NCBI GenBank assembly: GCA_031281275.1
Contig: JAITFP010000032.1
Span: forward strand, 1-42,294
From: Candidatus Fibrimonadaceae bacterium
GTDB taxonomy: Bacteria > Fibrobacterota > Fibrobacteria > Fibrobacterales > Fibrobacteraceae
Length of the DNA stretch: 42,294 nucleotides
Direction: 5' to 3'
In this document: piece by piece, positions 4,824-32,174 of the stretch
How the letters are laid out: every line of letters starts with the position of its first letter
Position numbering within the stretch: position 1 is the first letter of the stretch
Notes under the pieces: generated by a model
Database searches by the model: none
What the model saw: the letters and a program-made list of their open reading frames with translations, nothing else
What the model was told of the DNA's origin: nothing
Translations under genes and position numbers: made by a program

Positions 4824-5171
4824 ATGAGTGCATTTAAATTATATCCCGTAATAATAAACGCCATAATGCTTTTTTTGTTTGGAGCCTCGCTCTTTAAACC
4901 TCCCACCACAGTTTTTAAAATAGCACTTTTAAGCGACAGCTCCATTCGTAATTCCGTGCACATTGCGGCAATTGAAAATTATTGCCGCAATGTGACAAAG
5001 GTTTGGTGCATATTTTTTGCACTCAACGCTTCTATATCCCTTATCACGTTTTTGTATGCTCCAAACTGGATTTGGATACTTTATAACGGCTTTATTGCTT
5101 ATATTCTTATGGCTATCCTTTTTGCTGTGGAATGGTTTGTGCGTAAAAAAGTTCAAAAAGGTTTAAAATGA
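4824..5171 (+). CDS. Inner-membrane protein of the APE cluster (COG4648-like)
   Basis: 115 residues with three predicted transmembrane segments (about residues 7-27, 55-77 and 82-104) and a basic C-terminus (RKKVQKGLK). Small membrane proteins of this kind (COG4648) sit between the ACPs and the ligase in many APE clusters, ApeG in the E. coli order. Their biochemical role is unknown; anchoring of the synthase at the membrane is a guess. The end overlaps the next start by 4 nt (ATGA). Confidence 0.7.
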   Translation: MSAFKLYPVIINAIMLFLFGASLFKPPTTVFKIALLSDSSIRNSVHIAAIENYCRNVTKVWCIFFALNASISLITFLYAPNWIWILYNGFIAYILMAILFAVEWFVRKKVQKGLK

Positions 5172-6811: not shown

Positions 6812-7730
6812 AAATTCCGTTCATTGGGCAGACAAAAAGGAAGTTGCCGTTCTTTCGTGGCAATTGCGTTTTACGTCTTTTGTTGCCTGTCATTTTCCAG
6901 TTTTTTTGAAAAACACTCTTGCTATGGCAATAACGGCTTTTTATTTTGCAACTATGAAAAAAGAACGAGAAGCATCTAAAGATTTTTTGAAAAAATGCAG
7001 AGGAAAGGCTTCACTATTGGATTCCTACAAGCATTTTTTATCTTTTTCACTCTCTCTTATGGAGAAATTTTACTGTTGGAGCGGGGTTCCTGCTATTTCG
7101 CAAATAGAAACTCAACAAGACGATATGGACGAATTATGCAAAAGGCTAGAAGATGGCGAGGGTTGCCTTATGATATGCTCGCATTTGGGAAACATAGAAT
7201 ATTTATGGTCAAGTGCAGCCCTTGGCAAAACTCATGTAAAACGCAAATTTGAAATTTATCCAATTGCAGATACCGCCATAACCCCAAAGCAAAATAATGT
7301 TTTGAACAGAAACACCAAAACCATAAACGCAAATTCAATAGGCATTGAAGAAATAGCCCTTCTCTCGGAAAAACTTGCAACAGGAAATGTAGCCATTGTT
7401 GCAGGGGACAGAGTTTCTGCGAATACCAGAAATAGAACAATTCCCGTGGAATTTTTGGGAAAAGATGCTTCTTTTCCAATGGGAGTTTTTGCTCTTGCCT
7501 GTGCCCTAAAAGTACCTGTGTACTTTGTTTTTGCTCTTCGCGAAAAAGACCTCGGCTTTTCATCTGGCTGTAAAATGCACATACACAAGGCAAACTGCTC
7601 AATGCATGGAAGCTATTTAGAAAGAAAACGCCAAATTCCAAACTTGGCAAAAGAATTTGCTAAATTCTTGGAATATTATTGCCTGAAACATCCCATGCAA
7701 TGGTATAATTTTTATGATTTCTGGGCGTAA
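6804..7730 (+). CDS. LpxL/HtrB-like acyltransferase of the APE cluster
   Basis: 308 residues from GTG 6804, which was preferred over an upstream TTG because GGAAAG lies 7 nt before it and the overlap with the ligase shrinks to 8 nt. The motif CSHLGNIEYL gives the H-x4-E catalytic pair of the lysophospholipid/lipid A acyltransferase family, and AGDRVS follows. A hydrophobic N-terminal part would place it at the inner membrane. In APE pathways an acyltransferase of this kind is thought to move the finished polyene onto a lipid or glycolipid acceptor; the acceptor here is not known. Confidence 0.82.
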   Translation: MAKNSVHWADKKEVAVLSWQLRFTSFVACHFPVFLKNTLAMAITAFYFATMKKEREASKDFLKKCRGKASLLDSYKHFLSFSLSLMEKFYCWSGVPAISQIETQQDDMDELCKRLEDGEGCLMICSHLGNIEYLWSSAALGKTHVKRKFEIYPIADTAITPKQNNVLNRNTKTINANSIGIEEIALLSEKLATGNVAIVAGDRVSANTRNRTIPVEFLGKDASFPMGVFALACALKVPVYFVFALREKDLGFSSGCKMHIHKANCSMHGSYLERKRQIPNLAKEFAKFLEYYCLKHPMQWYNFYDFWA

Positions 7731-9195
7731 AATTACAATAGGCAAAGATTTTTTAAGTATAGAATCCCTATATGGAATAGCGAGCAGAAAAATTAAGGTT
7801 GAGCTATGCAATACAACTAAATTTAAACAGAGAATAGATGCAGGGGCGAATTTTTTAGACAAAATATTGATGGAAAAAGGCAGCATTTATGGTGTTACGA
7901 CCGGTTATGGCGATTCCTGCACGGAAAGGGTTAAACCAGAGCATTATAGAGATTTGCCGCTGTATTTAACCCGTTTTCACGGATGTGGAATGGGACGTTT
8001 TTTTGATGAATATTCAACAAGAGCCATAATTGCTGTTCGCCTGAATACTTTGGCACAGGGATTTTCTGGTGTTAGCTATGAACTGCTAAAACGCCTCGCT
8101 ATGCTTTTGGAACACGATATTTTGCCTTTGATTCCAGAAGAAGGTTCTGTTGGCGCAAGCGGAGACCTAACCCCGCTTTCTTATTTGGCTGGAACTTTAA
8201 TAGGAGAGAGAAACGTATTGTATAAGGGCAAAAAACGTAAATCTATTGATGTTTTGCGAGAATTGGGAATAAAGCCATACAAATTCAGACCAAAAGAAGC
8301 AATAGCGATTATGAATGGAACCGCAGTTATGAATGCAGTTGCAGCCCTTGCCTTTATGCGCGCCGAATACGCCGCAAATATGGCATGTAAAATAACGGCT
8401 ATGAATTCTCTTGCCATAAAAGGCAATGCCTATCACTTTGACAAAAAATTATTTTCTGTAAAACCGCACCAAGGGCAAAATTACGCTGCTGAAAAAATTC
8501 GCAAGTATTTGAATTACAAAGTTGGTAAACACATTATTTCAGAAAAGATTCAAGATGTTTATTCCATTCGCTGCGCCCCGCATATTATAGGGGTGTTTTT
8601 TGATGCTGCCCCACTGTTCAAAAAAATGATTGAAACGGAAATGAACAGTGCAAATGATAATCCTATTGTGGATCCGGAAACAAAATCCATTTTTCACGGT
8701 GGGCATTTTTATGGCGGACATATAGCCTTTTGCATGGATGCAATGAAAAATACAATAGCAAATATCGCAGACCTTTTAGATAGGCAGTTGGCAATTTTGG
8801 TGGATGTAAAATCCAATAGGGGTTTGCCGCCAAATTTGACGGGTAGCAAAAATATATCCATTAACCACGGGTTCAAGGCGGTGCAAATTGCTGTTTCTGC
8901 TTATACAGCCGAAGCACTAAAAAATACAATGCCTGCAAGTGTTTTTTCTCGCTCCACGGAATGCCACAACCAAGACAAAGTTAGCATGGGAACAATAGCC
9001 GCCAGAGATTGTATTCGTGTTTTGGAATTAACAGAACAGGTAATTGCATCTGTACTTATGGCTTCAGTTCAAGCGCTTCGCCTGCGGGGAATCAAAACGG
9101 ATTACGATTTTATTCCGCTAAAAGAAGACCGAGCCTTAGACAAGGAATTAACAGAAATTGTAAATTTAATCCGTAGGCGGCATTTTAAATTATAG
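7714..9195 (+). CDS. Aromatic amino acid ammonia-lyase (HAL/PAL/TAL family)
   Basis: 493 residues, close to the bacterial family length. The MIO cofactor triad is Ala148-Ser149-Gly150 (GSVGASGDLTPL), the catalytic tyrosine is Tyr59 (SIYGVTTGYG), and the later motifs YSIRCAPHIIG and NSANDNPIVD are intact. The family deaminates His, Phe or Tyr to an acrylate; in this context the product would be cinnamate or p-coumarate, used as aryl precursor. The specificity pair aligned with His-Leu of tyrosine lyases is Phe88-His89, a mix of the PAL-like Phe and HAL-like His, so the substrate is uncertain. It overlaps the acyltransferase by 17 nt. Confidence 0.9.
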   Translation: MISGRKITIGKDFLSIESLYGIASRKIKVELCNTTKFKQRIDAGANFLDKILMEKGSIYGVTTGYGDSCTERVKPEHYRDLPLYLTRFHGCGMGRFFDEYSTRAIIAVRLNTLAQGFSGVSYELLKRLAMLLEHDILPLIPEEGSVGASGDLTPLSYLAGTLIGERNVLYKGKKRKSIDVLRELGIKPYKFRPKEAIAIMNGTAVMNAVAALAFMRAEYAANMACKITAMNSLAIKGNAYHFDKKLFSVKPHQGQNYAAEKIRKYLNYKVGKHIISEKIQDVYSIRCAPHIIGVFFDAAPLFKKMIETEMNSANDNPIVDPETKSIFHGGHFYGGHIAFCMDAMKNTIANIADLLDRQLAILVDVKSNRGLPPNLTGSKNISINHGFKAVQIAVSAYTAEALKNTMPASVFSRSTECHNQDKVSMGTIAARDCIRVLELTEQVIASVLMASVQALRLRGIKTDYDFIPLKEDRALDKELTEIVNLIRRRHFKL

Positions 9196-9204
9196 GAGAT
9201 AACT

Positions 9205-9624
9205 ATGGCTGAACTTTCTACAAGCCTTGATTTTATTGTGGAGTTTTACGAAGTAGATTCTATGAAAATTGTTTGGCATGGCAATTATTTGAATTATATG
9301 GAAAGAGTTCGCTGCAAACTGCTCTCAAAAATTCAGCACAATTACAACCAAATGGAAGAAGCGGGTTATGCTTGGCCCGTTGTTAAAATTAAAGTGAAGT
9401 ACATAGCTCCTCTGCGTTTTTTACAAAAAGCACGCATTGAAGCCTTTTTGAATGAGTGGGAAAATTGCCTTAAAATATCTTATAAAATCACGGATTTAGA
9501 AACAGGAAAGCTATTGACTAAGGCAGAAAGCGAGCACATTGCCATAAATGTAGCTACCGGAGAAACGTGCTTTGTGTCTCCAAAAGAATTCACAGACAGG
9601 GTAAAGGCTTATGCAAATTTGTAA
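9205..9624 (+). CDS. Hotdog-fold thioesterase (4HBT/YbgC type)
   Basis: 139 residues with a single 4-hydroxybenzoyl-CoA thioesterase hotdog domain. The segment FYEVDSMKIVWHGNYLNYME contains the usual Asp (D18) and the HGNY turn. AGGAG sits 6 nt before the ATG. In APE clusters such an enzyme (ApeL position) could release or edit chains on the ACPs, or hydrolyse aryl-CoA. The end overlaps the next gene by 14 nt. Confidence 0.85.
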   Translation: MAELSTSLDFIVEFYEVDSMKIVWHGNYLNYMERVRCKLLSKIQHNYNQMEEAGYAWPVVKIKVKYIAPLRFLQKARIEAFLNEWENCLKISYKITDLETGKLLTKAESEHIAINVATGETCFVSPKEFTDRVKAYANL

Positions 9625-10090
9625 AATAACGCTTTTGTGCCTGTGTATCTCTGTTTTTGCTTTTGGAGAGGACAAAAACGCAGAACGCCAGATGTGGGAA
9701 AAATTGCAAAAAAAAATGGAACAGGGAATTAGCGGAAAATTTCGCCTTACAAAGAGTGTTGCAAAAATATCCAAGGAATTTGTTTCGCAGGGAATTTTCA
9801 GCGTTTCAAAAAAAGATGGAATAATATGGGAAACCGAAAAACCATTCCCAGACCTAAATGTATTTCCCATGAAAAAATTGCAGGAATATTTTTCTGGAGA
9901 TTTTGAAGAGTTGCAAAAAAAATTCGACCTAAAATTACTTGCAGATACACTAATCCTTTTTCCTAAGGAAAAAAATGTCAAGAAAATAATAACTTCTGCA
10001 ACTTTACTCGTTAAGGGGGATAACCTGCAGAGCTGCAAAATTGTATGGGCTAACAAAGATTATGCGTTCTATGAATTTATGGTTCCTTAG
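9611..10090 (+). CDS. LolA-like periplasmic carrier of the APE cluster
   Basis: 159 residues with a signal peptide (about 1-19, cleavage near AFG-E). The mature part resembles the LolA/LolB fold: an N-terminal helix, then GKFRLTKSV and DGIIWETEKPF strands, and a final strand series ending YAFYEFMVP. LolA-like proteins next to an MMPL exporter are typical of APE clusters (ApeM position). They are thought to carry the polyene lipid across the periplasm. The 3' end is shared with the start of the exporter. Confidence 0.75.
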   Translation: MQICKITLLCLCISVFAFGEDKNAERQMWEKLQKKMEQGISGKFRLTKSVAKISKEFVSQGIFSVSKKDGIIWETEKPFPDLNVFPMKKLQEYFSGDFEELQKKFDLKLLADTLILFPKEKNVKKIITSATLLVKGDNLQSCKIVWANKDYAFYEFMVP

Positions 10091-12338
10091 GCTCTATATA
10101 TTGCTGCTATTATCCGTTATTGGCATTGCCTTGACGGATTTGCCTTGGAAAATAGATGCGGATATGTATTCCGTTTTGCCAAACGGGCATATTTTAAAAG
10201 ACATCGGTGAAGCTGAACAAAAATGGAGCAAAAACATTTCTGCTAATTTTATGATTTTGCTGAGTGGCAAAGATTTTGACAAGGCAAAAGAGTCTGCATT
10301 TTTATTATACAACAAATTTGCAAAAGATAGTTCTCTGGAAAAATTTGAAATTTTTGCAGACAGCAATGCTGTACAAGATTTGCGAAATTTCTTTTTTGAA
10401 AATAAAATGAGGTTGCAAACAAAAGAATTTGTTCAAATCCTAAATACAAACACAAGCAAAATTCAAGAGCAGGCATTTTCTAAAATATACGGAGCTAATC
10501 CCTTAATTTCGCTTGAACATTTGGACGAAGACCCTTTTCTTTTGGGCGAAAACGGTATGGAATTAATTATGAGCAACCAAGCGATTGGAACTTGGGAAAT
10601 AAGGGATAATTTGCGAGTGGCAAAAGATAACAGCGGCAATAGCTACATTTTAATCAATGGAAAACTTGCCAAAGATGTTTCTCCCATTGCCAGCAAAAAA
10701 AATATTATAAGCAGAATAAAAGAATATGTAAAGGAGCAAAATTTGCACATAGCTTTTTCTGGCATTCCTTTCCACATCAATGAAAGTTCAGGAAACGCGC
10801 AAAGAGAAGTTGCAGCTATAACTGTTTTGTCTATGCTTTCCGTGATTTTATTGCTGCTTTTTGCCTTTCGCTCCGGCATTCCGCTAATTGCCGCAGTTGG
10901 AGTCACCTTAATTTCCGTGCTGTTTGCCGCTTCTGCTGTTCAAATTATTTTTGATAGAATACACATATTCACATTTGTATTTGGCACCAGCATTATAGGA
11001 CTTAGTTTAGACTATTCAATCCATTTTTTTTCCCATTGGAAAGTTGCTGCCGCAAATGAAAATGGTTTTAGCATTCGCTCTAAAATAATATTATGCCTAT
11101 TTTTTGGATTTTTAACAACACAACTAGGCTATGTAGCTCTAATGCTCACACGTTTTCCCCTGCTGGTTCAAATAGCAGCTTTTTCCTTTTTTGGGTTGAT
11201 GTGCGCATTTTTATCTGTGAATATTTTATTTCCCTATTTTAAATTGCCTCCGCAAAACAAGCGAACTTTACATATTGCTTTTGTTGCAAGATTTTTTTTG
11301 GCTGCAAAAGAATATTTTTCGGGCAACAAAATAGTGCGTACAGCGGTGCTTGCAGTACTTACAAGCACCTTTGTATTTGGGCTTATGAATTTCAAGATAG
11401 AAAATAATCTCAAAGATTTTTATTCTATGTCTAAAGAAATGCAAAGTTATGAAAAGCTCTCTGCTGAAATAATGAATGCTGGAACAGGTTTGTTTTATAT
11501 GGTTTGGGGTTCTTCACCAGAAGAAGTTCTTGAAAACGAAGAGGAACTCCGTTCTCATTTAGATACCCTGAGCAGCTATTTGGCGGTTAGTACCTTTGTT
11601 CCCTCCGCAAAAACGCAAGCGGAAGTTTACAACTCAATAAACAAGCATTTGCTGCCGCTTTATGAGGAACAGTCTATGATGTTAGGATTAACGATAAAAC
11701 CTCAAAAAGAGGAAAATAATATTTTAGATTTGAACTCTAAATTTCCAGAAGTAATTCAACAAACCATTGATAAATTGTGGCTAGGCAAAATTGGTGATAA
11801 ATATTACAGTGCGGTGTTGATTCTTAAAGTGAAAGACAAGGATTACTTAAAAAAAATACAGGTTAAGAACGCTATTTTAGTGGATAAAGTCAGTGAAATA
11901 GGAAATGAATTAACTGTTATTTCCAAAAAAATCATCCTTATGATGCTTGTTGCTTATGCAATTTCTTTGCTACTTCTCTCCATTGCCTATAAATTTAAGG
12001 AGGCTTTGAAAATTTTGATTGTTCCGCTTTTGGCTTCTGTAATATCGGCTTCTGCAATGTCTTTGCTTGGATTTTCCATGAGTTTCTTTGCAATATCTGG
12101 AACAATTTTAACGCTTGCAATTGGCATTGACTATTCTATATTTTTCTCCAAAGGCAACGGAGACGGCAAAATTACATTTTTTGCGGTTTTTTTATCCATG
12201 CTAAGTACCGTGCTTTCTTTTGGCTTGCTTTCGCTCAGCAATTTTGCCCCTGTTTCACATTTGGGTCTTTCCGTTTCAATAGGTGTAACCTCTTGTTTTT
12301 TACTATCGTTTTTTCTATTTTCACGCTATGAACGCTAA
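10062..12338 (+). CDS. MMPL/RND-family exporter of the APE cluster
   Basis: About 758 residues, with two repeats each made of a transmembrane helix, a periplasmic domain and a five-helix bundle. The helices lie near residues 5-25, 255-405 and 425-445, and 630-755. FGTSIIGLSLDYSIHFFSH and LTLAIGIDYSIFFSK carry the G-x-x-x-D-Y(S)I-type membrane aspartates that relay protons. It probably pumps the aryl-polyene lipid from the inner membrane to the LolA-like carrier. The start is not certain: ATG at 10062 or 10071, both inside the end of the LolA-like gene, and neither has a strong Shine-Dalgarno. Confidence 0.87.
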   Translation: MRSMNLWFLRLYILLLLSVIGIALTDLPWKIDADMYSVLPNGHILKDIGEAEQKWSKNISANFMILLSGKDFDKAKESAFLLYNKFAKDSSLEKFEIFADSNAVQDLRNFFFENKMRLQTKEFVQILNTNTSKIQEQAFSKIYGANPLISLEHLDEDPFLLGENGMELIMSNQAIGTWEIRDNLRVAKDNSGNSYILINGKLAKDVSPIASKKNIISRIKEYVKEQNLHIAFSGIPFHINESSGNAQREVAAITVLSMLSVILLLLFAFRSGIPLIAAVGVTLISVLFAASAVQIIFDRIHIFTFVFGTSIIGLSLDYSIHFFSHWKVAAANENGFSIRSKIILCLFFGFLTTQLGYVALMLTRFPLLVQIAAFSFFGLMCAFLSVNILFPYFKLPPQNKRTLHIAFVARFFLAAKEYFSGNKIVRTAVLAVLTSTFVFGLMNFKIENNLKDFYSMSKEMQSYEKLSAEIMNAGTGLFYMVWGSSPEEVLENEEELRSHLDTLSSYLAVSTFVPSAKTQAEVYNSINKHLLPLYEEQSMMLGLTIKPQKEENNILDLNSKFPEVIQQTIDKLWLGKIGDKYYSAVLILKVKDKDYLKKIQVKNAILVDKVSEIGNELTVISKKIILMMLVAYAISLLLLSIAYKFKEALKILIVPLLASVISASAMSLLGFSMSFFAISGTILTLAIGIDYSIFFSKGNGDGKITFFAVFLSMLSTVLSFGLLSLSNFAPVSHLGLSVSIGVTSCFLLSFFLFSRYER

Positions 12339-13485
12339 ATCGCTGAATATAGCAGATTTTGGAATAGCATGTTCCCTTGGAACCTCAAAAGATGCGGTTT
12401 GGCAGGCTTTGCTTTCTTGTGATGTTTCGGGAATAACTCAAAAAAAAATTTATGGAATGGAATATAACTTGGCTCTGCTAAACAGCGAGCAACTTGATAT
12501 AAACCGCATTTCCGAGCTGGCTTTAGAATCTATTGCTCCAACCATTGAAAAGGCTATTTCAAAATTCGGCAAAAAAAGAGTGGCGGTGCTTTGTGGAACT
12601 TGCTATAAGGGTTCAAATGAGGTTGTAAAGGCTCTTGAGATTTATAAAAAAAACGGAAAATTTCCTGATAATTATGAATTTGAAATGCAACAAACAGATT
12701 ATCCAGCTAAATTCATAGCAAAAAAATTTGGGTTGGAAGGAATTGCCATTAGCCATTCAACGGCTTGCGCTTCTAGTTCAAGCGCAATTATATCTGCAAG
12801 GAATTTATTGGAATCAGGATTTTGCGATGCTGTGATAGTCGGTGGAACAGATATTATTTCCGATTCCATTATACTTGGTTTTTCTGCATTGGAGGCAATT
12901 AGCCCAAAGCCATGCAATCCGTTTAGCAAAAATCGCTCCGGCATAACGCTTGGTGAAGGGGCAGCATTTTTTTTGCTTACCATAAGCGAAGAATTTTCCT
13001 GCGATATTAAAATAACCGGCTGTGGTGAAAGTGCAGATGCCGAACATATAACCGCACCACGCGCAGATGGCGAAGGTGCAAAAAATGCAATGAAAGCCGC
13101 TCTTGCAAATGCTGGTTTAAAACCAGAAGACATTGATTATATGAACCTGCACGGAACTGGAACAATGCTAAACGATGCTATGGAATCCATAGCTGTTTCC
13201 TCTATATTCCCTAGCACGCTTCCAGTTAGCTCAACAAAATCTCTCACAGGGCATACGCTAGGCGCAGCCGGTGCGTTGGAGCTTTCTTTTTGCTGTTTGG
13301 CACTTTCTTGCAAAAACACAGAAAAATTTTTGCCGCCTCACTTATGGGATAATGTTTTTGACCCGGAGTTGCCACATTTGAATTTTGTTTCCAAAGGCAC
13401 AAAAAGCAATAGATTAAAACGCTGCATAAGCAATTCTTTTGCATTTGGCGGTTACAATTCCAGCATTATTGTGGAGAGCGCATAA
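12328..13485 (+). CDS. Ketosynthase 1 of the APE cluster (ApeO-like)
   Basis: 385 residues of thiolase-fold beta-ketoacyl synthase with the full Cys-His-His triad: Cys147 (STACASSS), His275 (LHGTGT) and His309 (LTGHTLGA). In E. coli the KS at this position (ApeO) works as a heterodimer with the truncated, CLF-like ApeC; a matching partner lies at 17644-18255 on the other strand. Role: decarboxylative condensation of malonyl-ACP with the aryl or polyenoyl chain. It overlaps the exporter by 11 nt and the next gene by one base (TAATG). Confidence 0.9.
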   Translation: MNAKSLNIADFGIACSLGTSKDAVWQALLSCDVSGITQKKIYGMEYNLALLNSEQLDINRISELALESIAPTIEKAISKFGKKRVAVLCGTCYKGSNEVVKALEIYKKNGKFPDNYEFEMQQTDYPAKFIAKKFGLEGIAISHSTACASSSSAIISARNLLESGFCDAVIVGGTDIISDSIILGFSALEAISPKPCNPFSKNRSGITLGEGAAFFLLTISEEFSCDIKITGCGESADAEHITAPRADGEGAKNAMKAALANAGLKPEDIDYMNLHGTGTMLNDAMESIAVSSIFPSTLPVSSTKSLTGHTLGAAGALELSFCCLALSCKNTEKFLPPHLWDNVFDPELPHLNFVSKGTKSNRLKRCISNSFAFGGYNSSIIVESA

Positions 13486-13946
13486 TGGAACCTATTACAG
13501 AACCCTTGGAAAAACTTGTGCCGCACAGAGGAAAAATGCTTTTGCTCTCCAAATTAATCTCCTGCGAAGAAAAAAATAATTCTCTTTTAGCAAGCGTTGA
13601 TATTTCGCCAAGCAGTTTTTTTTATGATGATAATTTAAACGGCGTTCCTGTATGGGTTGGCTTTGAATATATGGCACAGGCTATTGCTGCTCTTAACGGA
13701 AAAAATGATTTGGCAAAAGGGCAAGAACCGGGGTTTGGATTTATTTTGAGCGTTAGCAATTTTATTGCCAGTACTCCATGTTTCAAACCGAATTCTACAA
13801 TTCTGATTTATGTAGAAGAAACTCTTGAAATGGACAATATGTTTATGTTCAATTGCTCAATAAAACAAGGTGAAGAAGAATTAGCAAAGGCTTCTATAAA
13901 TGCCGTGAAAATAAAAGACATATCTGAGGTAAAATATGAAAGTTAA
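13485..13946 (+). CDS. 3-hydroxyacyl-ACP dehydratase (ApeP-like)
   Basis: 153 residues of hotdog fold with the characteristic LVPHRGKMLLL start (His14 the likely catalytic base) and the VPVWVGFEYMAQAIAA helix of the ApeP group. In the E. coli pathway this protein pairs with the ApeI dehydratase; here the ApeI equivalent is the C-terminal domain of the ligase fusion at 5168-6811. It removes water after each ketoreduction to build the conjugated double bonds. The stop overlaps the ketoreductase start by 11 nt. Confidence 0.88.
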   Translation: MEPITEPLEKLVPHRGKMLLLSKLISCEEKNNSLLASVDISPSSFFYDDNLNGVPVWVGFEYMAQAIAALNGKNDLAKGQEPGFGFILSVSNFIASTPCFKPNSTILIYVEETLEMDNMFMFNCSIKQGEEELAKASINAVKIKDISEVKYES

Positions 13947-14670
13947 ATCCAAAAAAAGAGTTTTGGTTACCGGAGCAAGCGGAGGAATAGGAAAAGCCAT
14001 TGCAGAAAATCTCGCAATTGGAGGATACAGCGTGGTTGCCCATTACAACAATAATTATCCTTCTGCCAATGCTCTTGCAACCGCAATGTGCGAAAAGGGC
14101 TACGATGTGGATTTATTGCAATGCGATTTGCGAAACCGCACTCAGTGCCGTAGCGCAATTGAAAATGATATTGAGCAAAACGGAACATATTATGGCATAG
14201 TTACCAGTGCGGGAGTATGTTCAGACGCTGCATTTCCAGCTTTGACCGATGAAGATTGGGACAAGGTGATAGACACTAATTTGAATGGTTTTTTCAATAT
14301 TGTTCATCCGGCAATTATGCCTATGTGCAGAGCAAAAACTGGGCGCATAGTTGCAATAAGCTCTGTGGCGGGCATAGTAGGAAATCGTGGGCAGGTGAAC
14401 TACAGCGCATCTAAGGCTGGTTTGATCGGTGCAGTTAAAGCTTTGGCAGTGGAACTTGCCAGCCGTTCCATAACCGTGAATTGCGTTGCTCCTGGTTTAA
14501 TAGAAACCGATATGTTAAAAAATGTTCCGATGGATGTTGTGCTCTCAACTATTCCCATGCAACGAATAGGCAAACCTCACGAAGTTGCCGCTGTTGTTGA
14601 ATTTTTGCTTTCGGAATCTGCTTCTTATATTACCAGACAGGTGATTTCGGTGAATGGAGGATTGATATGA
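13936..14670 (+). CDS. 3-ketoacyl-ACP reductase (FabG-like, ApeQ position)
   Basis: 244 residues, a short-chain dehydrogenase with the nucleotide loop TGASGGIGKAIA and the Ser143/Tyr156/Lys160 catalytic set (ISSVAG...NYSASKAG). It would reduce the beta-keto intermediate on the ACP using NADPH. It sits between the two ketosynthase blocks and is overlapped by 4 nt with the next gene. The length matches FabG. Confidence 0.92.
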   Translation: MKVKSKKRVLVTGASGGIGKAIAENLAIGGYSVVAHYNNNYPSANALATAMCEKGYDVDLLQCDLRNRTQCRSAIENDIEQNGTYYGIVTSAGVCSDAAFPALTDEDWDKVIDTNLNGFFNIVHPAIMPMCRAKTGRIVAISSVAGIVGNRGQVNYSASKAGLIGAVKALAVELASRSITVNCVAPGLIETDMLKNVPMDVVLSTIPMQRIGKPHEVAAVVEFLLSESASYITRQVISVNGGLI

Positions 14671-15896
14671 GCAAAAGAGTGGTTGTTACCGGAGGTTCTT
14701 GTGTGTCTGCGCTTGGACAAAATTGGTCGGAAATTTTAACGAACCTGAAAAGCAAAAAAAACTGTGTAGTTCGCATGGAGCAATACGAAAAATATGCTCA
14801 AATGAATACAAAGCTCGCTGCACCGGTGAATTTTACACCACCCGATTATCCTCGACAAAAAACACGTGGAATGGGACGTGTTGCGCTTATGGCTACCTAC
14901 TGCACAGATTGCGCCATTAAAAATGCTGGATTAAGCGGCAACGCTATTTTACGTAATGGTCGCTGTGGAGTGGCTTATGGTTCTTCAATGGGAAATGTAG
15001 ATGCCCTGCTGGATTTTTTTTCAATGCTCACATCAGATAGATGCGATGGAATTACCGCAACAACCTATATTCGCTCAATGCCGCAAACCTGCGCAGTGAA
15101 CATAGGCGTATTTTTTGAATTAACAGGACGCATAATAACAACCAACACAGCCTGCACTTCTGGAAGCATGTCCATTGGCTATGCTTACGAAACAATAAAA
15201 AACGGACAGCAAGATATTATGATTGCAGGAGGAGCAGACGAACTTAGCCCAACAAGTTCCGCTGTGTTTGACACTTTGTTTGCAACCAGTACAAAAAACG
15301 AAACACCTCATTTAACTCCCAGAGCTTTTGACAAAGAGAGAGATGGCTTGGTTGTAGGCGAAGGCGCGGGAACCTTGATTCTAGAAGAATACGAACACGC
15401 AATAGCAAGAAGTGCAAAAATTTATGCGGAAATTGCCGGATTTGGAACCAACACAGATGGTTTTCACATAACGCAACCAAATAGAGACACAATGCAAATA
15501 GCTTTGGAACTTGCCATTAAAGATGCAGATATTTCACCAGACAAAATTGACTATGTGAACGCTCACGGAACCGCAACAGACAAGGGCGATATTGCAGAAA
15601 GCCATGCAACATACAATGCCCTTAAAAAATCCACTCCGGTGAGCACCTTAAAAAACTACATAGGGCATACACTAGGTGCCTGCGGAGCCATAGAGGCTTG
15701 GCTTTCCATAATGATGATGCGAGAGGGCTGGTTTGCGCCTAATATAAATTCAGATGATATAGATGCGGAATGCGCTAATTTGGATTATATACAAGGAGAA
15801 GGCAGGGAAATAAATGCAAAATATATCATGTCTAATAACTTTGCTTTTGGTGGAATAAATACCTCGCTGATATTTAAAAACTGGGATTCAAAATGA
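14667..15896 (+). CDS. Ketosynthase 2 of the APE cluster (FabF-like, ApeR position)
   Basis: 409 residues with a complete triad, Cys163 (TNTACTSGS), His300 (NAHGTAT) and His334 (YIGHTLGA), and the usual GGADE turn. It is closer to FabF than the first KS. In E. coli, ApeR is a stand-alone KS that probably makes the first extension steps or contributes to chain building. ATGA overlap with the reductase and a 4-nt overlap with the methyltransferase support one transcript. Confidence 0.9.
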   Translation: MSKRVVVTGGSCVSALGQNWSEILTNLKSKKNCVVRMEQYEKYAQMNTKLAAPVNFTPPDYPRQKTRGMGRVALMATYCTDCAIKNAGLSGNAILRNGRCGVAYGSSMGNVDALLDFFSMLTSDRCDGITATTYIRSMPQTCAVNIGVFFELTGRIITTNTACTSGSMSIGYAYETIKNGQQDIMIAGGADELSPTSSAVFDTLFATSTKNETPHLTPRAFDKERDGLVVGEGAGTLILEEYEHAIARSAKIYAEIAGFGTNTDGFHITQPNRDTMQIALELAIKDADISPDKIDYVNAHGTATDKGDIAESHATYNALKKSTPVSTLKNYIGHTLGACGAIEAWLSIMMMREGWFAPNINSDDIDAECANLDYIQGEGREINAKYIMSNNFAFGGINTSLIFKNWDSK

Positions 15897-16954
15897 GAGC
15901 AGTTGATGCCAAATTTGAAGCACAGCGCATTGCCTTTGCGCCCTTTGCATTCCAATGTGCGTGGTCAATGAGAGAACTAGGTGTTTTGGAATGTGTGAGC
16001 AAAGCCGGAAAAACTGGCGCAAGCATTGCAGAAATTTCCAAAGAATGTGAAATTTCAGAATATGGAGCACAGGTTCTTGCCGAATTTGGGCTTGGCACGG
16101 GAATTCTTAAACTTGCCTCTGAAAAAGAACCGCTCAAATACGCACTTGACAAAATAGGTTTCTTTATTCTACAAGATGAAATGACCAGAGTGAATATGGA
16201 TTTTGTACAAGATGTGTGCTATGAGGGGGCAAAATTCCTGAAAGACTCAATTAAGAACAAAAAACCTGAAGGATTAAAGGTATTCGGAAAATGGAACACT
16301 ATTTATGAGGCTTTGTCTAAACTTCCTCCGCAAACACAAAAAAGCTGGTTTGCCTTTGATCATTTCTATTCCGATATTGCTTTTCCCGAAGCCTTGCCCA
16401 TTGTGTTTAAAAATCCACCGCGCAAACTTGTAGATATTGGAGGCAACACCGCCAAATTGGCAATAGCTGCCTGCAAATACAATCCAGAAGTTGAGGTTAT
16501 TATAGTGGATTTGCCAGGGCAAATTTCTGTTGCAAAAAGAAACGCAGAAAATGCAAGCCTTTCAAAGCGCATACTATTTTGCGAAACAGATATTTTAAGT
16601 GAAAACCCAAATTTGCCATCCGATGCAGATGCCGTGTGGATGAGCCAGTTTTTAGATTGCTTTTCACTGGAAGAAATTTCCAGCATAGTGAACAAGGTTG
16701 GAAAATCCATACCAAAAGCAGAGCTTTTTGTGCTGGAACCTTTGCTGGATATGCAAAAATTTGAAGCAAGTGCTTACTCGTTGCAAGCAACTTCCCTGTA
16801 TTTCACCTGCATGGCAAACGGTAACAGCAAAATGTATAATTTTGCAGAACTTGTAAATGCCATTGAGAAGGGCGGCTTTGCTTTGCAGGAATCGCATCAT
16901 AATCTCGGCGTAAATTCCTATTCGCTATTGCGTTTTAAAGTAATTCCCCGCTAA
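15893..16954 (+). CDS. SAM-dependent methyltransferase (plant-OMT-like, Methyltransf_2)
   Basis: 353 residues with an N-terminal helical dimerisation domain (about 1-110, GVLECVSKAGKTGASIAEIS) and a C-terminal Rossmann domain with motif I LVDIGGNTAKLAIA, the acidic VIIVDLPGQ and MSQFLDCFSLEE. That is the layout of caffeate/acetylserotonin-type O-methyltransferases. In this cluster it would methylate the aryl head group (hydroxyl or ring position); aryl polyenes often carry such a methyl. It is the last gene of the rightward operon, and its end overlaps the convergent acyltransferase by 20 nt. Confidence 0.85.
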   Translation: MRAVDAKFEAQRIAFAPFAFQCAWSMRELGVLECVSKAGKTGASIAEISKECEISEYGAQVLAEFGLGTGILKLASEKEPLKYALDKIGFFILQDEMTRVNMDFVQDVCYEGAKFLKDSIKNKKPEGLKVFGKWNTIYEALSKLPPQTQKSWFAFDHFYSDIAFPEALPIVFKNPPRKLVDIGGNTAKLAIAACKYNPEVEVIIVDLPGQISVAKRNAENASLSKRILFCETDILSENPNLPSDADAVWMSQFLDCFSLEEISSIVNKVGKSIPKAELFVLEPLLDMQKFEASAYSLQATSLYFTCMANGNSKMYNFAELVNAIEKGGFALQESHHNLGVNSYSLLRFKVIPR

Positions 16955-17669
16955 TTTGCTCTTTTATTTTCTCCGTAAGCAGTTTTGAAGCCATGCCGCT
17001 TGGCATTTGTTTATATTCGTTAATAGAAATCGGCGGTAAAATATCAAAAACATAATGGTATCTTTGAGTTGGATGAAAACTGAAAAAAGCATCGTGTTTG
17101 CGAAGCCCTATTTTTTCGTTGCCGCCAATATGCACTGGCACAATTTCATAGCCAGTTTCAATAGCTAGCCGCGCTGCGCCTTTTTTCAACTCTATTGGCT
17201 TTCCTGGTATTGAACGTGTTCCTTCTGGGAAAATTATTACGTTATTTCCCTTTGAAAGAGAATTTGCAACACGATTTGAAATCTCTGCAAAGTCCAGTTC
17301 ATTGGAAATGTACAGAGTGTTCACTATTATCCGCACAATATTTCTTTTGCCAAGCACCCCGTTTACAATGCAATTTGCATTGGGAAGCAAAGAAATAAGC
17401 AAAACAACATCTAACAAAGATGGATGATTTGCAACTATTATTTTTGAATGTAAATTTTTGAGCAGATTTTTATTATTGATTTTTAATGTTAAACCGCCAA
17501 GCAAACGCATTTGCCACACAAAAATTGCAAAGAAAAAAGAAACTAACCGCCTCGGTTTAAAAATAAATAAAACAAGAAGCAATAAACTGAGCAAAATGCT
17601 GCCAATTCCAAAATTGACAAAAGACAGTACTTTTATAATAATTCTATATATGTAAAAAATTTTTTGCAA
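16935..17669 (-). CDS. PlsC-like lysophospholipid acyltransferase (ApeD position)
   Basis: About 244 residues from TTG 17669. Frame-open sequence continues to a GTG at 17768, but that part lies inside the end of the preceding gene and reads like an out-of-frame translation. One or two N-terminal hydrophobic helices are followed by the NHPSLLD (H-x4-D) and FPEGTRS motifs of 1-acylglycerol-phosphate acyltransferases. It follows the ApeC-like gene on the minus strand, the same pair as in E. coli ape. Likely role: attachment of the polyene acyl chain to a lipid. The start codon is uncertain. Confidence 0.82.
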   Translation of the reverse strand: MQKIFYIYRIIIKVLSFVNFGIGSILLSLLLLVLFIFKPRRLVSFFFAIFVWQMRLLGGLTLKINNKNLLKNLHSKIIVANHPSLLDVVLLISLLPNANCIVNGVLGKRNIVRIIVNTLYISNELDFAEISNRVANSLSKGNNVIIFPEGTRSIPGKPIELKKGAARLAIETGYEIVPVHIGGNEKIGLRKHDAFFSFHPTQRYHYVFDILPPISINEYKQMPSGMASKLLTEKIKEQISGELL

Positions 17670-18255
17670 AATCCAACCCTGAGCAAGAAAAATTATCTGG
17701 AACTTCCAAGCTGTTTTCCGATGGAACAACGGATAAAAAAAGCGCAAGCACAAAAGGCGTATTAGCACTCCCTATCAAAGTTTGGTAAGGAGGAGGAACA
17801 AGTTCGTCTCCGTGAACAAAAATGCGTTCTTTGTCTGCACCAGAGCGCAAAGCGGCAAGGCATTCGCAAAGCCCGTAATAAAAAGAATTTTTACCAGAGC
17901 ATATTGCAGAATATCCTTGCATATTTTTTTCTGCTATGGTTGCCATTGCAACCGGCGCATTAAAAACTGAATTGCTGAATTTTGCTGGAGATATTTTTTC
18001 ATTCTCCAAAATTTCTTCAGAAATTTTTAATTGCTGCGTGATTTCTCCATACTTAGAAGAAAAGGAAATTTTCACCTGTTGCCTACCCTGCGAAACTTCG
18101 TGCAGAGCGTATAGCACCATGCGAGAAAGCTGGCTTAAACGCCTTCTGAACACTGGCGAAACAAAAGGCAATGGCGGTGCTTCCGAGCTGCCTTCTCCTG
18201 GAGACCAAAAACACCATTTTGCAACATAAACCTTATTAAGCACATCACTGCCCAA
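17644..18255 (-). CDS. Half-ketosynthase, chain-length-factor-like (ApeC-like)
   Basis: 203 residues matching only the N-terminal half of the ketosynthase fold (the ketoacyl-synt_2 type, PF13723): FVSPVFRRRLSQLSRM, then FNAPVAMATIAEKN and AICSGKNSFYYGL. A cysteine stands where the KS nucleophile would be, but the histidine-bearing C-terminal half is absent, so it should not condense alone. E. coli ApeC is the equivalent partner of ApeO. The start may be ATG 18255 or GTG 18243; both overlap or abut the end of the upstream parvulin gene, suggesting cotranscription. Confidence 0.8.
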   Translation of the reverse strand: MGSDVLNKVYVAKWCFWSPGEGSSEAPPLPFVSPVFRRRLSQLSRMVLYALHEVSQGRQQVKISFSSKYGEITQQLKISEEILENEKISPAKFSNSVFNAPVAMATIAEKNMQGYSAICSGKNSFYYGLCECLAALRSGADKERIFVHGDELVPPPYQTLIGSANTPFVLALFLSVVPSENSLEVPDNFSCSGLDFAKNFLHI

Positions 18256-28693: not shown

Positions 28694-28705
28694 TGCCTAA
28701 TACTA
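28694..28705 (-). promoter_or_regulatory. Leaderless-type -10 box of the four-domain FISUMP gene
   Basis: TAGTAT at 28700-28705 (minus strand), then 6 nt, then ATG at 28693, with no Shine-Dalgarno. The box overlaps the stop codon of the upstream gene, so this gene probably has its own promoter. Confidence 0.45.
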
Positions 28706-28903
28706 AGTAAATTCGTAAACTTTGCGAACGTTTAATACTTTTTCGCTCTCATTTACAAAAATATCTTCTTTTTCCGCATCGTCTATAAACCTTATATGGC
28801 TACCATCGGGAATTTTTTCCATTTCCGATGGATTGTCTATAAGATAACGCAGGAATTCTCCGGTACGCTCTATATCGAGTGTTACTTTTTCCTCATTTGT
28901 CAT
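28703..28903 (-). CDS. Small hypothetical protein (DUF5647-like)
   Basis: 66 residues, acidic. The segment FLRYLIDNPSEMEKIPDGSHIRFIDD recalls DUF5647 (a short family with an 'L..PE..EKIPDGAHV.F.D' pattern). The Shine-Dalgarno AAGGAG lies inside the end of the upstream small gene, one base away, so the two form a pair. The pair has the size and order of a toxin-antitoxin couple, but no toxin motif was recognised. Confidence 0.6.
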   Translation of the reverse strand: MTNEEKVTLDIERTGEFLRYLIDNPSEMEKIPDGSHIRFIDDAEKEDIFVNESEKVLNVRKVYEFT

Positions 28904-28904
28904 A

Positions 28905-29129
28905 CTATTTTCTCCTTTTAGACAAAAATCTTTCTTTATACCAAACCCAACGAGTTTTTAAATCTTGTATAGCATAATCCAATGATAATCTATCATCTAT
29001 TAAAGTTTCATATTGGCAAATAAAATCCTTTAGTTCTCCATTTATAGACGATATATGAACTCTAATTCTATTACAACCATCAAAACCAATCTTAATTAAA
29101 TAACTCTTATTCACATTGGTAATATACAA
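28905..29129 (-). CDS. Small hypothetical protein paired with the DUF5647-like gene
   Basis: 74 residues if read from TTG 29129, which has GGGGAG 5 nt upstream; GTG 29114 is the alternative start. The segment IRVHISSINGELKDFICQYETLIDDRLSLDYAI suggests a small beta-sheet protein of the kind often found next to DUF5647 genes, but I cannot name it with confidence. It lies just after a strong terminator and starts a two-gene unit. Confidence 0.55.
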   Translation of the reverse strand: MYITNVNKSYLIKIGFDGCNRIRVHISSINGELKDFICQYETLIDDRLSLDYAIQDLKTRWVWYKERFLSKRRK

Positions 29130-29148
29130 AAAACTCCCCTCACCCCCT

Positions 29149-29176
29149 AAAACAAAAACCCCCTTGCGGGGGCTTG
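29149..29176 (-). terminator. Terminator, left copy of a 28-bp direct repeat
   Basis: CCCCC-TTGC-GGGGG hairpin preceded by AAAACAAAAA, so on the minus strand the hairpin is followed by a U-rich tract. It ends leftward transcription of the nuclease operon. It is identical over 28 bp to the copy at 31240-31267. Confidence 0.8.
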
Positions 29177-29187
29177 GGGCTAAAGAT

Positions 29188-29207
29188 TAGTGGCTAGTGG
29201 CTAGTGG
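29188..29207. repeat. Tandem heptamer repeat (TAGTGGC x2.9)
   Basis: Three copies, the last one base short, of TAGTGGC over 20 bp, in the spacer after the nuclease operon. On the minus strand it supplies the stop codon of a small broken ORF. Confidence 0.85.
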
Positions 29208-29312
29208 ATACTTCTGCTATCTTTTCTCGTACCATTACACCAATAATCTCTGCTGGGCTTTTTTTACAGAAAGTTCATCTAAGCCAAATAATTTGGTGTT
29301 TAGTTTGCTCAC
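29194..29312 (-). pseudogene. Small broken ORF with an A7 slip
   Basis: From GTG 29312 the frame reads SKLNTKLFGLDELSVKKAQQ and soon stops. Around a run of seven A (29259-29265, minus strand) the next frame continues with a sensible IIGVMVREKIAEVSTSH. One extra A would join them into a 40-residue ORF. This suggests a recent indel in a homopolymer, or slippage. Not recognised. Confidence 0.3.
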
Positions 29313-29362
29313 GAAACCAATTCCCCGTAGCTAAAGCCCTGTGGGTCTCATATCTATACGCT

Positions 29363-30226
29363 TTATGCTTTCTGATAAGCTTGGTTAATGAAATCTTTTA
29401 TTTCATTAAATTGTTCTTCGGATTTGCAATTGCACATCCAACTATCTGTACCAAGATATCTCACTTCGCAATAGCTAGGAGGGATAAACCTATATTTCAA
29501 TTTAGTTTTGCTTTGAAAATTTGACATATCGGCTTTAAAGCATATAATATATTGCCCACCGTCAGTGTCCCAATAATTAAGAGAACAAAAATCATTGTCA
29601 TTTTTTTTGAAACGCATAATCATTTTAGAAGGATGCTCAGTCACATCACCCAAACTCTTTATATGTGACAATATTTTTTCAAATAAAGGTAATTGTTTGT
29701 TGGATACTGTTTTTTTAAAATATTCTACATCCTTAATTTGTTGGGATTTTGGTTTTTCTGATGATTCATCAAATTCTACATTGGGCTGACATACAATATC
29801 AAACTCTGGTTCAGCTTGATTAGGATTAATTCTTCTAAAACTTATTTCTAATGCATAGATATTCATACCGTGTTCATTCAGCATATTAATCGTGTCTTTG
29901 AATTCTTCTATTTCACTTGCAATAAAAATTAGAATGTCTGCTTGTTGGTTAGACATATACAATAAACCTCTGCCAATATGCTCAGGATCCAATTCTTTCC
30001 ATTGTGCTTCTATCACTACACGTTTGCCAGTATTTTCGGCTAAGATGTCTATTCGTCTTTGACTGGCTTTTAAGCCTACTTCTGTCTCTGCTTTCACCAG
30101 AGGTAAACCAAGTTTATCGCTGAGAAAATCTATGTTATCTGCTAACCATGCTGTAAAATCTGTTTCTTTTTTGACAGTTAAATCTTCATAGCTAACATAC
30201 GTTGGCTTATTTAATGTTAATGGCAT
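29363..30226 (-). CDS. PD-(D/E)XK nuclease-like protein, partner of the PvuRts1I-like enzyme
   Basis: 287 residues. The N-terminal half has a PD-(D/E)XK-type core: RRIDILA (Asp60), VVIEAQW (Glu73-x-Gln75) and the following EHIGRGLLYMSNQQADILIFIASEI. This is the pattern of DUF4268/DUF91-like restriction and repair nucleases, with Gln in place of the usual Lys. The C-terminal 120 residues (LFEKILSHIKSLGD...WDTDGGQYIICFKA) form a separate, unrecognised domain. The ATG has GGAGAC ahead and lies inside the last 20 bp of the PvuRts1I-like gene, so the two are translated from one message. Confidence 0.7.
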   Translation of the reverse strand: MPLTLNKPTYVSYEDLTVKKETDFTAWLADNIDFLSDKLGLPLVKAETEVGLKASQRRIDILAENTGKRVVIEAQWKELDPEHIGRGLLYMSNQQADILIFIASEIEEFKDTINMLNEHGMNIYALEISFRRINPNQAEPEFDIVCQPNVEFDESSEKPKSQQIKDVEYFKKTVSNKQLPLFEKILSHIKSLGDVTEHPSKMIMRFKKNDNDFCSLNYWDTDGGQYIICFKADMSNFQSKTKLKYRFIPPSYCEVRYLGTDSWMCNCKSEEQFNEIKDFINQAYQKA

Positions 30227-31163
30227 TGACTTGTCTCCTATTATTGCTTACTGTACGGTGTGGGTTTGATGGCTTGGTTCTAACTATAGGAAATTCTTTG
30301 GAAATCCTTTTCCAATATGCCCTTTTTTCTTTTTCTCCATAATATTTGAAAACACCCGCAAATTTGTATTTTTCTCCATCATCTAATCCTACAAATATGA
30401 GACGATTTTGTTTGTTTAGTTTATACAAATCTTTCCCTTCTGAAAATACATCTTTTTTGTTCCATTTATTGCCGTAATTGGCGTACCTAGAGCCAAGTTT
30501 TGGAAACCAAACTTTGTATTTCTTATATTCGCCTACTAATGTTTTTGGGGTAAAAAAGCCCCTTGATTGTTTATTACTCGATTCCCAAGAAAAAATCATT
30601 TTAAGTGCATCTCGCTGACTTCCAAAGACAACATAGTCATCGGTAGAAATCGTTTTTTTGCGTTTAAAATATTGTTCGGAGGCTCTTGGCGGTGGATTCC
30701 ACGGCTCAATTTTTTTACTTTTAATACGTTCTTTTATTTTTTCCACTATTTCATTTATTTTACTTTCTATTTTTTCAAATGAAATTTCTTTTTCGGATTC
30801 TTTTGAATAAATTTTAATACGAAACTCTTTATAGCCTGGCTTGACTTCTCTTATTTTCTTTTCTCGTTTTTTGTCTTCTTCTTTTTGGTTTTCGTGATGT
30901 TGCTCATCGCATTCGATTCCTATGTTTAGCTGAGGGAAGTATAAATCTATGCGATATTTTTTGCGGTCTTTGCAAGTGATGCCCTTTTCTCGGACTGGTT
31001 CTAAATCACAATTTTTTAAACGATTCCAAATGGCATAAACTACGTAGTTCTCATATTTTTTTCCACGTTTTTCATTTTTTTCAGAGTATTCTTTGTCTTG
31101 TTCGGATAATCGTTTGCATATTTCCTTAAATTTTTCGTTTATGTAAGTATTTTCTTTTTTCAT
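30207..31163 (-). CDS. PvuRts1I/AbaSI-like modification-dependent endonuclease
   Basis: 318 residues, near the 290-320 of the PvuRts1I group. An N-terminal Vsr-like nuclease domain carries RIDLYFPQLNIGIECDEQHH (Asp73, Glu84, Asp86, Glu87, His89/90). A lysine-rich helical linker follows (about 120-165). The C-terminal domain (VVFGSQRDALKMIF, KYKVWFPKLG, NRLIFVGLDDG then KFAGVFKYYG) matches the SRA-like half that recognises the modified base. Known members cut DNA with 5-hydroxymethyl- or glucosyl-hydroxymethyl-cytosine, as in T-even phages. A Shine-Dalgarno GGAG precedes the ATG. The codons are rich in AAA/GAA, giving a lysine-heavy protein. Assignment rests on recalled motifs. Confidence 0.72.
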   Translation of the reverse strand: MKKENTYINEKFKEICKRLSEQDKEYSEKNEKRGKKYENYVVYAIWNRLKNCDLEPVREKGITCKDRKKYRIDLYFPQLNIGIECDEQHHENQKEEDKKREKKIREVKPGYKEFRIKIYSKESEKEISFEKIESKINEIVEKIKERIKSKKIEPWNPPPRASEQYFKRKKTISTDDYVVFGSQRDALKMIFSWESSNKQSRGFFTPKTLVGEYKKYKVWFPKLGSRYANYGNKWNKKDVFSEGKDLYKLNKQNRLIFVGLDDGEKYKFAGVFKYYGEKEKRAYWKRISKEFPIVRTKPSNPHRTVSNNRRQVNAINIK

Positions 31164-31239
31164 ATTACGATTCTCCGTTTTTTAATACCAACCTTAAACA
31201 TTATATATAATATACATTTTTTTTGTGTAATGAGTACGA

Positions 31240-31272
31240 AAAACAAAAACCCCCTTGCGGGGGCTTGTTTTT
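31240..31272. terminator. Bidirectional terminator, right copy of the 28-bp repeat
   Basis: The same hairpin as at 29149, here with A-rich sequence on the left and CTTGTTTTTTC on the right, so it can end transcription in both directions. It lies 3 bp after the leftward gene ending at 31276. Confidence 0.82.
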
Positions 31273-31275
31273 TCA

Positions 31276-31521
31276 CTACGCAAGCCCAGTTTCTTTTTTA
31301 CGCATTTTTAAACGGTTACGTAATTTCTTAAAAATACTATCAAATATATTTATATCTGATTTAACAATTATTGCATCATCCGGCAAGTCTGGATGTTCAT
31401 CATCAAAATCTGGTTCAAAGCCTGAATCTTCAAGAACTTTGAGGCGAGCATATAATTCCTCATTTAAAGGGAAAGCCTTAGCTGCCTGCTTTGCAGTCAT
31501 GACATACACTTTATTTTCCAT
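31276..31521 (-). CDS. Small hypothetical protein
   Basis: 81 residues from ATG 31521, chosen because GGAGATGG lies just upstream; 18 extra codons upstream are open but lack a start signal. The protein begins MENKVYVMTAKQAAKAFPL, has an acidic middle (DFDDEHPDLPDDAIIV) and a basic C-terminus (FKKLRNRLKMRKKE). The acidic-then-basic layout fits a DNA-binding antitoxin or small regulator, but no family was recognised. It is followed by a terminator. Confidence 0.6.
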   Translation of the reverse strand: MENKVYVMTAKQAAKAFPLNEELYARLKVLEDSGFEPDFDDEHPDLPDDAIIVKSDINIFDSIFKKLRNRLKMRKKETGLA

Positions 31522-31582
31522 AATACCATCTCCTTTCTTTTCTACCTGCAATCCTAACAGAAATAAAACTGCCATTGATTTT

Positions 31583-31812
31583 TTAAACCGAAATTTTCAT
31601 TTCCAATTCTTTAAGTCCAAGCAAAATTGCAGTTTTCATAACATTTTGATAACCTACATTGAGGAAACTGTCGACTGCTTGTGCTCGTTTTTGCATTGCA
31701 AGTGGAATGTCATAGCTTCTTCTCTAAAAAGATTTCTTTCTGGAGTGCCAACTTTTCCAAATCTAACATCCATAATTTCATCAACGCTTGCTACTTTTCG
31801 ATCTGCTTTCAT
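31583..31812 (-). pseudogene. Frameshifted small antitoxin-like gene
   Basis: ATG 31812 has AAGGAG ahead. The frame begins MKADRKVASVDEIMDVRFG then KVGTPERNLFREEAM, like the N-terminus of HigA-type antitoxins (ERFGKIGTPER.. pattern), and stops at 31654. One base around the EEA codons would restore a second frame that runs ...PLAMQKRAQAVDSFLNVGYQ... to TAA at 31583. The helix-turn-helix expected in HigA is not seen. Probably a decayed gene. Confidence 0.5.
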
Positions 31813-31890
31813 AATACTCCTTCATTAAATTATACCTCCAAAACAACTCCCCTTAGCTAAACGGGATTCAAATAAGCGTTTTGTTTGTCA

Positions 31891-32088
31891 TTATTTTTTC
31901 GTCCAATAAAAACTGCTGCCAACCTTTTTCATACTTTTTCCTATGTCCATTCCTATTTTTCCTCAGTCGCTTTTCAACGCTAAGTAATCTCGTTCAAAAC
32001 CGCGAGAAAAGTCAGGGATAGCAACAAAATTACCCCACATATTAAATGCTGAGGCATAACCCGAAAGAAAATGTTTGAATTTACTCAT
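31891..32088 (-). pseudogene. Small protein with an in-frame TGA (41 + 23 codons)
   Basis: ATG 32088 opens MSKFKHFLSGYASAFNMWG then IPDFSRGFERDYLALKSD and meets TGA at 31963-31965. The same frame continues with GKIGMDIGKSMKKVGSSFYW and stops at TAA 31891. I recall short proteins of this type ending 'G-D-W-x-x-V-G-x-D-(I/M)-x-K-A-M', which would put a Trp (TGG) exactly at the TGA. It may be a nonsense mutation, or a 41-residue product may be real. RF2 is present, so UGA is expected to terminate. Confidence 0.45.
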
Positions 32089-32142
32089 GCTATAAAATAT
32101 ACAAAAAAGCACACCCCCCAACCTCACCCAAACCGACTCCCT

Positions 32143-32170
32143 AAAACAAAAACCCCCTCACGGAGGCTTG
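32143..32170 (-). terminator. Terminator of the Ig-repeat lipoprotein gene (third repeat copy)
   Basis: Related to the 28-bp terminators at 29149 and 31240, with three changes in and around the loop. The hairpin is shorter (CCTC/GAGG core) but is followed on the minus strand by the same U-rich tract. It lies 4 bp after the stop codon. Confidence 0.65.
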
Positions 32171-32174
32171 AAGT

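Follow-up and report, generated by a model that had tools for sequence, protein, structure and literature searches.

PvuRts1I/AbaSI-family enzymes act on phage DNA with modified cytosine, cutting 5hmC/5ghmC DNA and sparing C and, for the most part, 5mC. The closest described relatives of the first of the two nucleases considered here belong to this family, whose known members work alone (PMC4157451, PMC4027163). In PvuRts1I, the flipped base is thought to be held by W205, P207, W215, N217, and E228, and activity was abolished by the substitutions W215A, N217K, E228K, and E228A (PMC4157451, PMC4027163). In its nuclease domain, K17, E20, D57, E68, E71, and H74 are residues whose mutation weakens or kills the enzyme or which are conserved in the active site (PMC4027163, PMC4157451). 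GmrSD is a type IV system directed at glucosyl-hmC. DUF4268, the usual C-terminal domain in the family of the second nuclease described here, also occurs as a fusion with GmrSD proteins (PMC4619093).

The window, the whole 42,294-nucleotide stretch that was analysed, encodes two minus-strand open reading frames of 318 and 287 amino acids (gene 1 and gene 2) that overlap by 20 bp, with coordinates and lengths exactly as given by the first-pass annotation, a model's reading of the letters. The genes and the features around them were as follows.

30207–31163, minus strand: gene 1, PvuRts1I/AbaSI-family modification-dependent endonuclease, 318 aa (Pfam, PADLOC, PDB, fold)
29363–30226, minus strand: gene 2, partner nuclease, 287 aa, PD-(D/E)XK plus DUF5655-like (PADLOC, Pfam, AF2 and Foldseek)
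30207–30226, minus strand: overlap of gene 1 and gene 2, 20 bp (sequence read directly)
31240–31266, minus strand: 27-nt terminator-like hairpin at the upstream edge of the unit (sequence motif)
29149–29175, minus strand: identical copy of the 27-nt terminator-like hairpin at the downstream edge of the unit (sequence motif)
31200–31229, minus strand: promoter-like site TACACA-18-TATAAT, 37 bp before gene 1 (weak evidence)
28694–32174: variable interval, flanked by a FISUMP-repeat gene on one side and a lipoprotein-like gene on the other (synteny with sister species)

Gene 1 and gene 2 are most likely transcribed as a single unit, because the same 27-nt minus-strand hairpin bounds them on both sides. 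Direct reading of the sequence identified a Shine-Dalgarno GGAG approximately 9 nt 5' of the ATG of gene 1, and a Shine-Dalgarno AGGAGA 7 nt 5' of the ATG of gene 2, the latter lying within the 3' end of gene 1. Promoter-like sites numbered 20 in the region versus 13.9 expected, which makes the site at 31200–31229 a weak one. The shared unit proposed for the two nucleases is supported, on sequence evidence, by the overlap, the flanking terminators, the Shine-Dalgarno sites, and a G+C content of 33%.

The gene 1 protein matched Pfam PvuRts1I-like_N (PF21598; E=2.5e-19, 70.2 bits against a cut-off of 27) and SRA (PF18491; E=9.7e-12, 45.5 bits against a cut-off of 30.2), as well as PADLOC mREase_II (E=1.2e-36). 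A phmmer search of the PDB returned AbaSI and PvuRts1I only (AbaSI 4PAR, E=3.5e-17). The AF2 model had a mean pLDDT of 80.5, and its five best Foldseek matches were all AbaSI or PvuRts1I structures aligned along the whole chain, with full-length matches to 4par and 4oq2. Overall TM-scores were moderate (~0.47), as is expected if the relative placing of the two domains, the nuclease at residues ~34–148 and the SRA domain at ~166–293, is poorly modelled. The assignment to the PvuRts1I/AbaSI family is borne out by all of these searches, and the predicted fold is the expected combination of SRA and Vsr-like domains.

The nuclease active site of gene 1 (I83-E84-C85-D86-E87-x-x-H90 plus D73, E38, and K35) was intact. 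In an alignment of 80 relatives from many phyla, residues K35, E38, D73, E84, D86, E87, and H90, which correspond to K17, E20, D57, E68, D70, E71, and H74 of PvuRts1I, were identical in 76–80 sequences. The VWFP motif lies at residues 218–221 and FAGVF at 268–272, with W219, P221, F268, and G270 near-invariant. Both elements picked out by the first-pass annotation, a Vsr-like IE-x-DE-x-x-H site and an SRA-like C-terminus with these two motifs, were therefore present and conserved far beyond chance. Gene 1 shares the domain order, fold, and nuclease active site of its family, together with the SRA residues W219 and P221, but its identity to AbaSI is ~25% (structural alignment), its base-pocket loop is not alignable with confidence, and it carries a ~25-residue C-terminal extension whose end overlaps the second nuclease gene. 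With it, the AbaSI family gains a divergent member from a bacterium of the Fibrobacter family.

W219 and P221 of the base pocket are retained, and the equivalents of W215, N217, and E228 shift with the alignment register. The N217 column holds N in 78 of the 80 relatives and the E228 column holds E in 77; multiple alignments place gene 1 K237 and K248 at these two columns. In the HMM alignment it is Y230-G-N232 that falls opposite the W-x-N motif, and E242 lies close by; pairwise alignments of the loop disagree and mostly leave a gap. The AF2 model failed to settle the register, as the loop falls in a low-confidence block (pLDDT 52–62). The pocket loop of gene 1 is thus divergent, and because of this divergence and the uncertain register, specificity for 5hmC/5ghmC is taken from the family. 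Cutting of (g)hmC-containing DNA, as had been suggested from the sequence, is plausible on family grounds but not assured.

The gene 2 protein matched PADLOC PDC-S11 at residues 4–165 (PDLC04911, E=4.2e-31) and PDC-S18 at residues 155–286 (E=3.2e-5). Pfam placed DUF5655 at its C-terminus just under the cut-off (1.6e-4, 22.2 bits against 24), and the C-terminal domain matched that of a Fibrobacterota DUF5655 protein (L120). PDC-S11-type proteins carry the RefSeq annotation 'DUF4268 domain-containing protein', whereas a Pfam scan of the gene 2 protein found no DUF4268 (PF14088). The C-terminal DUF4268 usual in this family has apparently been replaced in gene 2 by a DUF5655-like domain. Gene 2 has the same N-terminal PD-(D/E)XK domain as PDC-S11 and matches PDC-S18 (PD-(D/E)XK plus DUF5655, as in L120) weakly but repeatedly in its C-terminal domain, although the nuclease domain of PDC-S18 is of another subfamily. 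E49, D60, and E73 are kept among relatives, and Q75 in all but a few of them, so the separate PD-(D/E)XK core (D60, E73, Q75) claimed for this protein stands. The AF2 model contained a clear PD-(D/E)XK core, for which Foldseek returned NucS/EndoMS (E=2.8e-3), and an alpha/beta C-terminal domain of low confidence, with E. coli YjbR among its weaker matches (probability 0.97, E=0.16).

DUF4268 was present at the C-terminus of most of the gene 2 relatives scanned (all six of one set and L130). It was absent from the C-termini of L131, L136, L138, and L139, some of which had RAMA-like or HTH-like domains instead. The PDC-S11 nuclease domain is accordingly a cutting module that occurs with several kinds of domain resembling readers: DUF4268, RAMA-like, HTH-like, and DUF5655-like. 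Viral contigs carry the PDC-S11 nuclease domain with RAMA-like or HTH-like C-termini (L131, 3875–4705; L136, 1774–2553; L139, 3956–4798). A relation between the gene 1 and gene 2 proteins was looked for and none was found.

Conservation of the pair was investigated from both sides. The AbaSI-family loci checked numbered 91, including a few near-duplicates. Genome contigs supplied 79 of them; the others were on a viral sequence (one), on plasmids (five), or among the matches of a whole-genome search (several). The 79 were found by searching genome contigs with a seven-sequence alignment; a single-sequence scan found nothing. The partner was beside the AbaSI-family gene in 0/91 loci by tblastn and a nuclease-domain profile that recovers all positive controls at E<1e-48, with a few neighbours hidden by short contigs. 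Conversely, none of 32 gene 2 relatives had an AbaSI-family gene near it in the surrounding DNA examined. Partner relatives occurred anywhere in the genome in 3 of 50 AbaSI-bearing genomes versus 6/199 and 2/168 in comparison groups, which is not a clear excess. Within Fibrobacterota, two other AbaSI-family genes scored over the cut-off (in G073 and G123), both without the partner. One candidate second pair (L020) was not counted, as the nuclease lies 3.7 kb from the AbaSI gene with other genes between, one of them on the opposite strand. None of the other genomes searched had the two genes as neighbours, an outcome that had been named beforehand as contradicting a conserved two-gene defence unit, and on these sequence comparisons such a system is not supported.

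The pair lies in an interval that differs from that of G053, a sister species in which one of the flanking genes is 85% identical. The distance between the FISUMP-repeat gene and the lipoprotein-like gene is 3.48 kb here versus 0.55 kb in G053, where the syntenic place is taken by a gene for a ParE toxin together with one small gene and the nuclease pair is absent. The G+C content of the pair is ~33%, versus ~40–47% for most of the flanks. The 27-nt hairpin occurs in the genome of the window as the two exact copies listed above and a third with three mismatches (32143–32169), and nowhere else; these three copies delimit consecutive gene cassettes within one variable locus. G053 has one copy, with one mismatch, in the syntenic place beside the ParE cassette, and the hairpin is absent from ten other genomes of the genus. 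Occurrence at a single locus fits, without proving, a role of the hairpin as the recombination site of a cassette array, and the interval has the appearance of an exchange site for small cassettes. Short minus-strand reading frames also occur at 31583–31812, one of which looks by eye like the start of an XRE-type antitoxin, with no Pfam match obtained. They look like the remains of a toxin-antitoxin module within this interval.

Other AbaSI-family genes have neighbours of their own. Three of the relatives adjoin a DUF2779 gene whose product gives a weak Cas4-like match, an association that recurs in distant hosts:

L049, 5361–6623: AbaSI-family/DUF2779, Desulfobaccales MAG, genes overlapping by 8 bp
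L050, 6860–8338: AbaSI-family/DUF2779, Methylotenera MAG, genes overlapping by 8 bp
L092, 4401–5933: AbaSI-family/DUF2779, Bacteroidales MAG, DUF2779 gene 16 bp upstream

Four Bacillaceae loci (L070, 6843–8054; L078, 6834–8045; L080, 6834–8045; L085, 6834–8045) have, 29 bp downstream of their AbaSI-family gene, a gene for a HEPN_RES_NTD1 plus RES protein. These domains were scanned in L070 only, and the proteins of L078, L080, and L085 begin near-identically.

The best explanation, to which we give a probability of about 0.62, is that the locus is a horizontally acquired defence cassette of two self-sufficient single-gene modules. Gene 1, a normal member of the known AbaSI family, would act without a partner as a type IV, modification-dependent restriction enzyme. 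Its SRA domain would flip the modified cytosine of incoming DNA, probably that of phages, and the Vsr-like PD-(D/E)XK domain would then cut at a fixed distance, sparing a host whose own DNA is without that modification. Gene 2 would be an unrelated PDC-S11 candidate defence nuclease with an exchanged, DNA-reader-like C-terminal domain, carried in the same operon and acting independently. The common transcript would be a result of joint acquisition. This reading is favoured by the family and fold of gene 1, the catalytic residues conserved in both proteins, the modular partner nuclease with its varied C-termini, and the identical terminators bounding a unit that is low in G+C and missing from the sister species. 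Because the searches turned up no second genome with this pairing, with the partner beside none of the 91 AbaSI-family loci and no AbaSI-family gene beside the 32 partner relatives, the locus has the appearance of two jointly acquired defence genes and not of a novel two-part system. Against joint acquisition of separate modules, the 20-bp overlap and internal ribosome site tie the genes to a shared transcript, an arrangement seen in many genuine two-component systems, and the three relatives abutting a DUF2779/Cas4-like gene make helper nucleases conceivable. A true two-gene type IV system, in which modified DNA would be recognised and cut by the AbaSI-like enzyme while gene 2 processed the cut ends or contributed a further reader, draws on the same overlap and the Shine-Dalgarno inside the end of gene 1, the single transcription unit suggested by the flanking terminators, the two intact active sites, and the YjbR-like, DNA-binding-looking fold of the gene 2 C-terminal domain (Foldseek probability 0.97, in a low-confidence region of the model). 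Such a pair would be like GmrSD in having two parts predicted to attack modified DNA, but neither DUF262 nor DUF1524 is in the pair and the folds are unrelated. We consider a two-gene system unlikely, as the pair was seen once only, with no reciprocal neighbours in either search, and described members of the gene 1 family act singly.

The remaining alternatives concern the base pocket in whole or in part. An active AbaSI-like enzyme that reads a modification other than 5hmC/5ghmC through its changed pocket loop is less likely again: lysines at the N217 and E228 columns (K237 and K248) would be telling, given that N217K, E228K, and E228A abolish PvuRts1I activity (PMC4157451, PMC4027163), but the register is uncertain, with the HMM alignment, the pairwise gaps, and the low pLDDT all bearing on it. 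If the changed loop does confer a new base specificity, the enzyme could serve as a mapping reagent. We regard as improbable a broader version in which a second PD-(D/E)XK nuclease has been recruited time and again by enzymes of the PvuRts1I family, its kind differing by lineage (PDC-S11/DUF5655 here, DUF2779/Cas4-like in L049, L050, and L092), that finishes off the cut genomes of modified-DNA phages, with the pocket here altered to read a different cytosine modification. Least probable is a decaying or inactive acquisition, with the modified-base pocket broken and the genes drifting. The divergent loop, the extension of gene 1 beyond the usual C-terminal end, and the small, fragmentary reading frames in the same interval would agree with decay, but neither frame is truncated, both have ribosome sites, and no catalytic residue has been lost.

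Elsewhere in the window, positions 4824–17768 have, by eye only, the look of an aryl-polyene/flexirubin-type pigment cluster, with ketosynthases, an ammonia-lyase-like gene, acyltransferases, a methyltransferase, and an exporter.
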